Assembly (NCBI GenBank): GCA_937872095.1 | Contig: CALMNW010000076.1 | Span: forward strand, 1-64,000 | DNA: 64,000 bases | Source of the DNA: an uncultured Verrucomicrobiota bacterium | GTDB taxonomy: Bacteria > Verrucomicrobiota > Kiritimatiellia > CAIQIC01 > Lenti-01 | Reading direction: 5' to 3' | In this document: positions 17,918-20,355 of the stretch, piece by piece | How positions within the stretch are numbered: position 1 is the first letter of the stretch | Layout of the letters: each line of letters opens with the position of its first letter | Notes under the pieces: model-generated | Databases searched by the model: none | Seen by the model: only the letters and a program-made list of their open reading frames with translations | What the model was told of the DNA's origin: nothing | Program-made: the position numbers and the translations under genes

Positions 17918-19390
17918 ATGCGGCGTTGTTGCTGGTTCCTGCTCGTTCCGTTTCTCGTCCTCCCCGTTTTCGCGGCGCAAACGACCGTCTCGTTCGACGC
18001 CCACTTCACCGGTCCGGACGAATACCTCGAAAACGTTTCCCTCGCCGACGAAGCGGCGACCTTCCTCAACACGTATTACGAATCCTGGGGCTCCTGGTAT
18101 TGGGCCGGCTTCGCGTTTTCCACGGTCAGCAACCTCGTCGCCAATTCCTACACGAACCAGTACGCCGCGGCGCAAGGCTTCCCGCGCGCATACGCCGTGG
18201 GCTATCACGACTATTACCAGAACATCGCTCCCGAAATCGCCTTCGCCCTGCCCGCGGCGCCGAAGTCGGTCCGGATCAACAACACGACCTACACCGCGCT
18301 CACGATCCGCGACGGCGACGAATACGGCTTTTCCCAGCCCTTCGGCAGCAACGACACCTACATCCTGACCCTGACCGCCTACGACGTCGAAGGCACCGTC
18401 GTCGCGACCACCAACCACTATCTGGCCGATTTCCGCGACGGGAAGACCTTCATCCAGACCAACTGGTCCACGCTCGATCTGTCGTGGATGCCGGCGGACG
18501 TCGTCTCGCTCGTCGGCGCGCTGACCACGTCCGACGTGGGCATCTACGGCCCCAACACGCCGACGTATTTCGCCTTGGCCGACTTCACCTATGCCTACGC
18601 CGACAGTTCCGGCGGAATCGCCTCCACCAATTCCGCCATCCTGTGCTGGGCGGACGGCTGGGCCGACTACGCGCCGGGCACCAACGTCGAGGCTCAATGG
18701 CAGGTGCCTGCGAACGCCACCGGCGCCGCCGAAGGTTCCCTCGACGGCCTCGGCGCCACCAACGGCATAGTGCCCCTCGGCGACGACGGCTCGATCGTCC
18801 TGACCTTCCCCGCGCCGATCGCCGACGGCCCCGGCGCCGATTTCGCCGTTTTCGAAAACGCGTTCTCGGAGGATTTCCTCGAACTGGCATATGTCGAGGT
18901 CTCGTCCGACGGCACGAACTACTTCCGTTTCCCGACCCACTGTCTGGAGACGAACTGGATCGACACCTACGGCGCGACGAACGTCACCGATCCGACGGCC
19001 TTCGGCGGCTTCGCCGGCAAGCACCTGCAGGGCTTCGGCACGCCGTTCGATCTGCGCGCGCTCGCCGGCGAGGACGGCCTCGACGTCCGCCGCGTCACCC
19101 ACGTGCGCATCGTGGACGTGAAGGGCGACGGCTCGAATCTCGACGACTACGGCAACCCCGTTTTCGACCCGATGCCGACCTACGGTTCCGGAGGCTTCGA
19201 CCTCGACGCCGTGGGCGTGCTGAACGCCTGCCTCGACATCTCGGCCGATCCGGCCGCGGCGGCCCCCGCCCTGCCGGGCTATGAAACCGTGCTCGAATAC
19301 ACCCCCACGCTGGCCCCGCCCGCCTGGCGCACGAACGACGTGCCCGCGCAAGGCGCGCCCGGCTTCTTCCGCTGGAAGCTGGTGAAATGA
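17918..19390 (+). CDS. exported DUF4465-type protein under B12 riboswitch control
   Basis: Protein of 490 residues with a signal peptide (MRRCCWFLLVPFLVLPVFA). Residues about 25-230 match the DUF4465 pattern: a W-x-GFAFS segment, INNTTYTALTIRDGDEYG, an HYLADFRDG stretch, a W-STLDLSWMPADVVSLV segment and TPTYFALADFTY. A second domain (about 240-460) carries DFAVFENAF, LAYVEVSSDGTNYFRFP and AGKHLQGFGTPFDL, a combination I associate with surface proteins near cobalamin uptake loci of Bacteroidetes. The C-terminus is the short WRTND...FFRWKLVK tail. The riboswitch 50 nt upstream supports a role in corrinoid capture or salvage. A strong GGAAAGGA Shine-Dalgarno precedes the ATG. Confidence 0.8.
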   Translation: MRRCCWFLLVPFLVLPVFAAQTTVSFDAHFTGPDEYLENVSLADEAATFLNTYYESWGSWYWAGFAFSTVSNLVANSYTNQYAAAQGFPRAYAVGYHDYYQNIAPEIAFALPAAPKSVRINNTTYTALTIRDGDEYGFSQPFGSNDTYILTLTAYDVEGTVVATTNHYLADFRDGKTFIQTNWSTLDLSWMPADVVSLVGALTTSDVGIYGPNTPTYFALADFTYAYADSSGGIASTNSAILCWADGWADYAPGTNVEAQWQVPANATGAAEGSLDGLGATNGIVPLGDDGSIVLTFPAPIADGPGADFAVFENAFSEDFLELAYVEVSSDGTNYFRFPTHCLETNWIDTYGATNVTDPTAFGGFAGKHLQGFGTPFDLRALAGEDGLDVRRVTHVRIVDVKGDGSNLDDYGNPVFDPMPTYGSGGFDLDAVGVLNACLDISADPAAAAPALPGYETVLEYTPTLAPPAWRTNDVPAQGAPGFFRWKLVK

Positions 19391-19416
19391 TCCGGAAGCC
19401 CCAATCGGCTTTCCAA

Positions 19417-19447
19417 GGTAGGGCCGCCGCGGCGCGCCGTCCCTACC
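19417..19447. repeat. GC-rich inverted repeat
   Basis: Perfect 7-bp arms GGTAGGG and CCCTACC flank a 17-nt GC-rich centre rich in CCGCCGCGG. It lies 27 nt after the DUF4465 stop. There is no T-tract, so it is not a standard terminator; it could still end transcription or be a dispersed intergenic repeat. Confidence 0.55.
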
Positions 19448-19455
19448 CCCCTGGA

Positions 19456-19591
19456 TTTTTCCACGCTATGGAAAAAAATTCGGCGGTTTTTCCACGCTAC
19501 GTAAAAACTTTCGGCGGTTTTTACGTAGAACGTAAAAACTTTGGGCAATTTTTCCACACTGTGGAAAAAAGTTTTCCACAGTGTGGAAAAC
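19456..19591. repeat. array of five 21-bp palindromes, four on a 31-bp period
   Basis: Units at 19456-19476, 19487-19507, 19518-19538, 19549-19569 and 19571-19591. Units 3, 4 and 5 are perfect palindromes (9- or 10-bp arms): TTTTTACGT, TTTTTCCACA and GTTTTCCACA half-sites. Unit 1 has 8-bp arms (TTTTTCCA). Unit 2 is a hybrid with a CCAC-type left half and an ACGT-type right half. Spacers between units 1-4 are exactly 10 nt and two read nnTTCGGCGG. The array precedes the prepilin motif of the next gene and overlaps its open frame. Confidence 0.93.
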
Positions 19592-20355
19592 TTCGAATCG
19601 CGATTCCCCGCGCGCGGGCGGCAGGGTTCACGCTGATCGAGCTGTTGGTGACGATGGCGGCGATCGGCCTGCTGGCGGCGATCCTGACCGCCGCGATGCC
19701 GGCGGCGAAGGCCGCGGCGGACGCGGCGGCCTGCCGCTCGAACCTGCGGCAGCTGGCGACGGCGAACCTGGCCTACGCGGCGGACCACGGGCGGTACGTG
19801 GCGGCGGCGGCGGACATCGACGGCGCCAATTCGATCCGCTGGCACGGGGTGCGCGTCGGCAAGGTTTTCGACGGCTCGCAGGGCCCGCTGGCGGAGTATC
19901 TGGGCGGCGGCGGCGCCAGCACGTGGGTGCGCCGCTGCCCGGGGTTCCAGCCCGACGCGGCCGGGTTCGAGGCGTCCTGCGGGGGTTACGGCTACAACGC
20001 GCTGGGGGTCGGCTCGGAACTCTGCCTGCCGGACGGCGGCGGCACGGCGGTCGGCATGCGGCCCGGTGCCCTTGCCCAGCCGGCGGCAACGGTCATGTTC
20101 GCGGATGCGGCCTACCTGAAAGGCAGCGGCGCGAAGGCGAAAATGATCGAATATTCGTTCGCCGAACCGCCCCAGTTCGCCGGCGGCGGCACGCCGTGGC
20201 CCACCATCCATTTCCGCCACCGGGGCAAGGCGAACGTGGCGTGGTGCGACGGCCACGTGACGTCCGAGACGCTGGCCCGCAGCGACGGCAAGTTCCGGAC
20301 CCACCAATTGGGCTGGTTCGGGCCGGACGACAACTCGCTGTTCGACCCGTTTTGA
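19468..20355 (+). CDS. type II secretion-like pseudopilin, H-x9-DG class
   Basis: Contains a class III prepilin signal AAGFTLIELLVTMAAIG, cleaved after Gly, followed by a hydrophobic helix. The C-terminal signature HFRHRGKANVAWCDGHV is the H-x9-DG motif of the DUF1559-like pseudopilins that are numerous in PVC bacteria. The start is uncertain: ATG 19468 gives a leader of about 53 residues encoded by the palindrome array; GTG 19561 gives a 22-residue leader; the open frame reaches back to ATG 19387, overlapping the DUF4465 stop. A short leader is normal for prepilins, so GTG 19561 is a real possibility. It probably forms a periplasmic pseudopilus subunit. Confidence 0.85.
   Translation: MEKNSAVFPRYVKTFGGFYVERKNFGQFFHTVEKSFPQCGKLRIAIPRARAAGFTLIELLVTMAAIGLLAAILTAAMPAAKAAADAAACRSNLRQLATANLAYAADHGRYVAAAADIDGANSIRWHGVRVGKVFDGSQGPLAEYLGGGGASTWVRRCPGFQPDAAGFEASCGGYGYNALGVGSELCLPDGGGTAVGMRPGALAQPAATVMFADAAYLKGSGAKAKMIEYSFAEPPQFAGGGTPWPTIHFRHRGKANVAWCDGHVTSETLARSDGKFRTHQLGWFGPDDNSLFDPF

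Follow-up and report, generated by a model that had tools for sequence, protein, structure and literature searches.

Tandem palindromic binding sites for dimeric proteins, spaced by roughly two or three turns of the helix, are familiar from the ARG boxes and the NrdR boxes, in each case as the operators of one regulon. Short palindromes that are dispersed over a whole chromosome are represented by the REPs, which are reported to favour co-directional and convergent gaps between genes as well as gene 3′ ends, and some of which lie in-frame within genes (PMC3733652). In-frame palindromic repeats are represented by the Rickettsia palindromic elements (RPEs), which occur in unrelated protein genes and add tens of residues to the encoded products (PMC10969869).

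The palindromic array described here lies in the leader of a pseudopilin gene within the window, a 64,000-nt stretch of DNA from the 3.33-Mb genome (G000) of an uncultured member of the Kiritimatiellae. It belongs to a family that resembles each of the above systems in part. Like REPs, the family consists of dispersed short palindromes that are mainly intergenic and few in divergent gaps. Unlike REPs, its units are symmetric (TTTTCCA/TGGAAAA) and carry no GTAG/CGTC tag, the 12-nt spacers that flank them are nearly all distinct, the units keep strict registers of 22 and 30–31 bp, and half-site hybrids are found where complementary changes in a stem are not; moreover, the occurrence of PF01797 does not track array content. 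Like RPEs, the arrays can lie in-frame in unrelated genes, namely those for the pseudopilin leader, a TatD-family hydrolase, a nucleotidyltransferase, a TilS-like protein and an ABC permease. However, an RPE is a single element of ~150 bp that encodes a conserved peptide, whereas the arrays comprise 1–6 units of 19 bp that are read in several phases, have dimer-like sites at fixed helical phase, are mostly intergenic and show the species-wide change of half-site described below. In contrast to ARG and NrdR boxes, the array sites number hundreds, lie mostly nearer to stop codons and are also present in coding sequence. The open-access literature contained no relevant report of such repeats in Kiritimatiellae, and the family is apparently undescribed so far. 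With hundreds of copies per genome across a bacterial class, such uniform palindromes in helical phase would represent either a DNA-binding system not recognised so far or a repeat of an unusual kind.

Phased palindromes in a pseudopilin leader

Positions 19456–19591 of the window hold five palindromic units of 21 bp each (Table 1). Both their coordinates and their placement in the open frame of the prepilin gene agree with the original prediction. They lie between the upstream stop at 19390 and GFTLIE, and their presence is far above chance: TTTTCCANNNNNTGGAAAA, allowing at most one mismatch, is matched three times in the window and not once in 100 shuffles. The predicted 31-bp periodicity applies to the first three steps from unit to unit, while the last step, which had been passed over, measures 22 bp. 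This shorter step recurs regularly in the family, units 4 and 5 forming its typical 22-bp end pair. Units 3 to 5 had all been described as perfect, which is correct for units 4 and 5 but not for unit 3, whose single mismatch affects the innermost pair. The hybrid unit 2 joins two different halves, TTTTTCCACG and TTTTTACGTA. Finally, the sequence had been thought to lack stop codons in any frame; in fact, frame 0 alone is open on the + strand, with 2 stops and 1 stop in the remaining two frames.

Table 1. Coordinates of the palindromic units and of the genes around them (positions in the window)
Feature	Position	Strand	Description
Upstream gene	17918..19390	+	490 aa; DUF4465 domain; TGA stop overlaps the pseudopilin start (ATGA)
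Pseudopilin gene	19387..20355	+	322 aa; N-terminal methylation motif and H-X9-DG C-terminal domain (ORF, PF07963, TIGR04294/TIGR02532)
Unit 1	19456..19476	.	TTTTTCCACGCTATGGAAAAA; CCA/CCA half-sites; 2 mismatched pairs
Unit 2	19487..19507	.	TTTTTCCACGCTACGTAAAAA; hybrid, one half CCA and the other ACG
Unit 3	19518..19538	.	TTTTTACGTAGAACGTAAAAA; ACG/ACG half-sites; 1 mismatched pair
Unit 4	19549..19569	.	TTTTTCCACACTGTGGAAAAA; perfect palindrome
Unit 5	19571..19591	.	GTTTTCCACAGTGTGGAAAAC; perfect palindrome, perfection spanning 19569–19593

If translation begins at the proposed start codon, ATG 19387, the pseudopilin would possess a leader of 78 aa ahead of AGFTLIELL, array included. In all nine relatives in which both signals are visible, the pseudopilin start overlaps the upstream stop (ATGA or GTGA), the leader spans a whole number of codons, and it is open in this frame, with stops in the other frames. 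Owing to this start overlap, the multiple-of-three length and the open frame across relatives, the array is most likely translated as part of a long pseudopilin leader, and prepilin peptidase should then cut this leader off. Among the ten genomes compared (source genome counted), seven have an array in the orthologous leader, which is then at least 25 and up to 127 aa long; the orthologues of the other three have no array, and their leaders are 2, 10 and 23 aa long. In the sister species G234, the orthologous leader shows four ACG units where the relatives have CCA units.

Abundance and taxonomic spread

The motif TTTTCCA-N5-TGGAAAA has 177 exact sites in the 3.33-Mb source genome as against 0 for a reversed control, and a further 34 sites are of the form TTTTACG-N5-CGTAAAA. 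A phylum-wide search recovered the motif from every one of the 14 genomes sampled from the same order, at 14–718 copies; its occurrence in other families of the class is patchy, some having many copies, and counts elsewhere in the phylum are close to background. When named GTDB genomes were scanned for the 31+22 layout, the matches listed came only from Kiritimatiellae and from MAGs with other labels (Lentisphaerae, Verrucomicrobia, Opitutia, Spartobacteria and ‘uncultured bacterium’). The genomes used are mostly fragmented assemblies, and the named ones are mainly MAGs. The 22-bp pair pattern is absent from the IMG/VR viral contigs and no similar arrays were found in phages, and a phage or viral origin was dropped after these empty searches. 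Nor are the arrays evenly spaced along the chromosome to a significant degree (p = 0.13).

Spacing and half-sites

In all lineages sampled, neighbouring units are almost exclusively 22 or 30–31 bp apart, i.e. about two and three turns of DNA, and a 22-bp pair is the usual cap at one or both ends of an array. The lengths of the spacers are fixed and their sequences are mostly different (34/38, 17/17 and 23/23 distinct), and few partly decayed units adjoin the arrays. The units are thus found on one helical face and at constant spacing, as would be expected of phased sites for a dimer.

The centres of the units differ between species, with AATGATT/AATGGTT cores in the rumen species G090 and G104 and CACNNTG-like cores in other species. 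Within the core, complementary pairs at N1/N5 and N2/N4 are no commoner than independence would give in 11 of 12 sets, and mostly rarer. CCA/ACG hybrids, for which stem formation is impossible, account for 29 of the 119 units sampled and are common in the source genome. Half-site type can also change species-wide: G234 has 152 ACG-type sites vs 14 of the CCA type, and the ACG type is represented by none or one site in the rest of its genus, G000 aside. Either the sites of G234 followed a changed protein, or copies replaced one another.

Because compensatory pairing is lacking, hybrids occur, spacers vary and G234 has switched type, double-stranded sites for a dimer are favoured over hairpins. 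The pattern points to double-stranded DNA that would be read by a dimer, presumably with one half-site per subunit. A hairpin or Rfam RNA was dropped, there being no covariation and the Rfam matches being sub-threshold microRNA look-alikes only. A dimeric protein bound repeatedly along one face of the helix, as the original prediction suggested, is the mechanism that the sequences support best, with registers that recur class-wide and half-sites that behave independently.

Arrays between and within genes

Intergenic positions are occupied by 119 of the 130 classifiable arrays of at least two units, as counted with a retrained home-made gene caller in a GC-rich genome. Convergent gaps hold 21% of the arrays vs 13% in the background and divergent gaps 8% vs 19% (chi-square p = 0.001), and the arrays lie a median of 40 bp away from stop codons, as against 93 bp for starts. 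This stop-side bias is the opposite of what promoter operators would show.

Within genes, a TatD-family hydrolase (TIGR00010) carries at least one unit after the same residue in 11 of the 13 readable genomes of the family. The array encodes FSTxWKK or FSNHWKK and is in frame every time, and the site has no unit in any of the ten readable genomes from the order's other families. Alignment to solved TatD-family structures places it in a loop ahead of the next conserved strand. Two close relatives, with 2 vs 6 units at this site, differ in its length by 105 bp, or 35 codons. The GC3 of the array codons relative to the remaining gene is confounded by ascertainment and was not relied on. In G234 (L382) and G095 (L392), the same gene has an extra in-frame insertion after the palindromes that holds CCCCCATGGCCTTGCGCC; at another place in G095, this sequence forms tandem repeats with a 48-bp period.

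A sugar-phosphate nucleotidyltransferase has arrays in the segment after NGDSLAP in the source genome and in SV3-B9.1. Many genomes of the order show a break in the homology of this protein after NGDSLAP, which brings in no stops and usually amounts to whole codons, most of these insertions being known as in-frame alignment gaps alone; array-like matches overlap the segment in G226, G336 and G068. Further in-gene arrays were found in a TilS-like protein, an ABC permease and N-terminal leaders. Arrays thereby account for the unusual stretches FFHxxEK and FSTxWKK that predicted proteins of the class contain, and that automatic annotation may misread as conserved peptide leaders.

Array positions turn over between species, and the array is thus dispensable at many loci. 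Between G000 and G095, the array flanks are too diverged to expose a clean empty site with target-site duplications, such as a MITE with terminal inverted repeats would leave. No clean empty site was seen between G090 and G104 either, which are 95–98% identical in shared blocks and whose available stretches overlap little; collinearity between these two breaks often, once beside an array (L243:8394).

Possible origins and functions

The reading we prefer, with a probability of roughly 0.58, is that of an interspersed Kiritimatiellae family of phased dimer-binding arrays, which resemble REPs and RPEs in placement and are tolerated in leader and loops. Each 19-bp unit (TTTTCCA-N5-TGGAAAA, with TTTTACG halves in one lineage) would be a double-stranded site for a dimeric protein, and steps of 22 bp (two turns) or 30–31 bp (three turns) would bring several dimers side by side onto one face. 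We infer protein binding, cooperativity between the dimers and upkeep of the sequence by binding or homogenisation. The phasing could also be a by-product of copying an element of fixed architecture, although the divergence of the spacers argues against recent copying.

Several other explanations deserve consideration. If the arrays were a selfish or neutral repeat, without binding function, kept uniform via gene conversion and tolerated between genes and in loops, then their turnover of position, the in-frame tolerance in leader and loops and the uniform type of each species would follow readily. Yet spacer sequences diverge while spacer lengths and palindromes hold, partly decayed units are few, and one coding position is kept family-wide with exact outer letters, even if the conservation of these letters is partly ascertained because unit detection demands them; we therefore consider such a repeat unlikely. 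Mobilisation of REP-like elements by a Y1 (RAYT) transposase, which would read the palindrome as a single-stranded hairpin, is difficult to reconcile with the absence of compensatory pairing, with common CCA/ACG hybrids that could not form this hairpin and with units that offer no constant GTAG or CGTC tag. In addition, 116 of 136 genomes of the class encode Y1 transposases (PF01797), whether or not they have arrays: no Y1 gene accompanies the 63 sites of G151, and G015 has 21 PF01797 matches but no sites. While small dispersed palindromes that are mainly intergenic, lie beside stops, are scarce in divergent gaps and sometimes sit in-frame in genes are what is reported for REPs, we regard mobilisation of this kind as quite improbable.

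The units might instead be core sites of a site-specific recombinase, that is, inverted half-sites round a variable 5-bp centre, at which strand exchange would yield hybrids, in-place replacement of units and expansion of arrays. This matches the architecture of half-sites around a variable centre, the CCA/ACG hybrids, the in-place difference of 2 vs 6 units between close species and the replacement of type across a whole array. It leaves dispersal to new loci unexplained, however, and long phased runs are unusual for recombination sites, making a recombinase a rather improbable agent. The pseudopilin locus itself invites the idea of a regulatory or leader signal specific to prepilins, as seven of ten relatives have the array in the orthologous leader. 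This link, made in the original prediction, fails: only 1 of the 24 PF07963 prepilin matches in the genome bears a leader array, namely that of this locus, and a wider survey of 37 prepilin-like N-termini showed an array within 150 bp for 2, both from the same orthologue. The 31-bp period proved to be conserved in relatives when this was checked, though arrays are absent from other prepilin genes. With the other prepilins bare, arrays genome-wide and three relatives relying on a short, array-free leader, a prepilin-specific role was dropped as extremely unlikely. The array should have no special pilin role here, and in-frame insertion into a leader that is presumably cleaved off should be harmless.

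To return to the phased dimer-binding arrays, a tentative extension is that they belong to a chromosome-wide system of DNA organisation or occlusion. A putative dimeric protein would then occupy phased arrays even inside the genes of conserved enzymes, and in one lineage its half-site specificity would have changed and nearly all sites would have changed with it. The in-frame arrays in conserved enzymes and the near-complete switch of half-site between sister species offer a rare case in which to study co-change among genome-wide sites.

Neighbouring repeats and contig ends

Arrays of the source genome and of other species can have a second dispersed element, TATAGCGC-hairpin-GCGAGCGAGCGAGGCTCCGCGAGCGGAGCG, directly beside or near them; in the source genome this is seen at C14:56015 and C14:87206 (L007 and L008), and L022, L071 and L195 are further loci. 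The sequence GGGAATCGCGG occurs 32 times in 827 kb of stretches from the source genome, with 0 occurrences of a scrambled control, and a looser form of it lies at most 150 bp from 11 of 26 arrays vs 1.4 expected genome-wide, a proximity that may be partly due to the intergenic location that both share. Lastly, three contig starts of the source genome (C13, C14 and C21; L003, L006 and L024) and one contig end (C16; L021) break beside arrays. They share the abutting sequence ccgtcacacgctttcggacattccc, another being ccagggctgtcccgtttaaaaccc, a pattern that would result if insertion sequences had entered the arrays.
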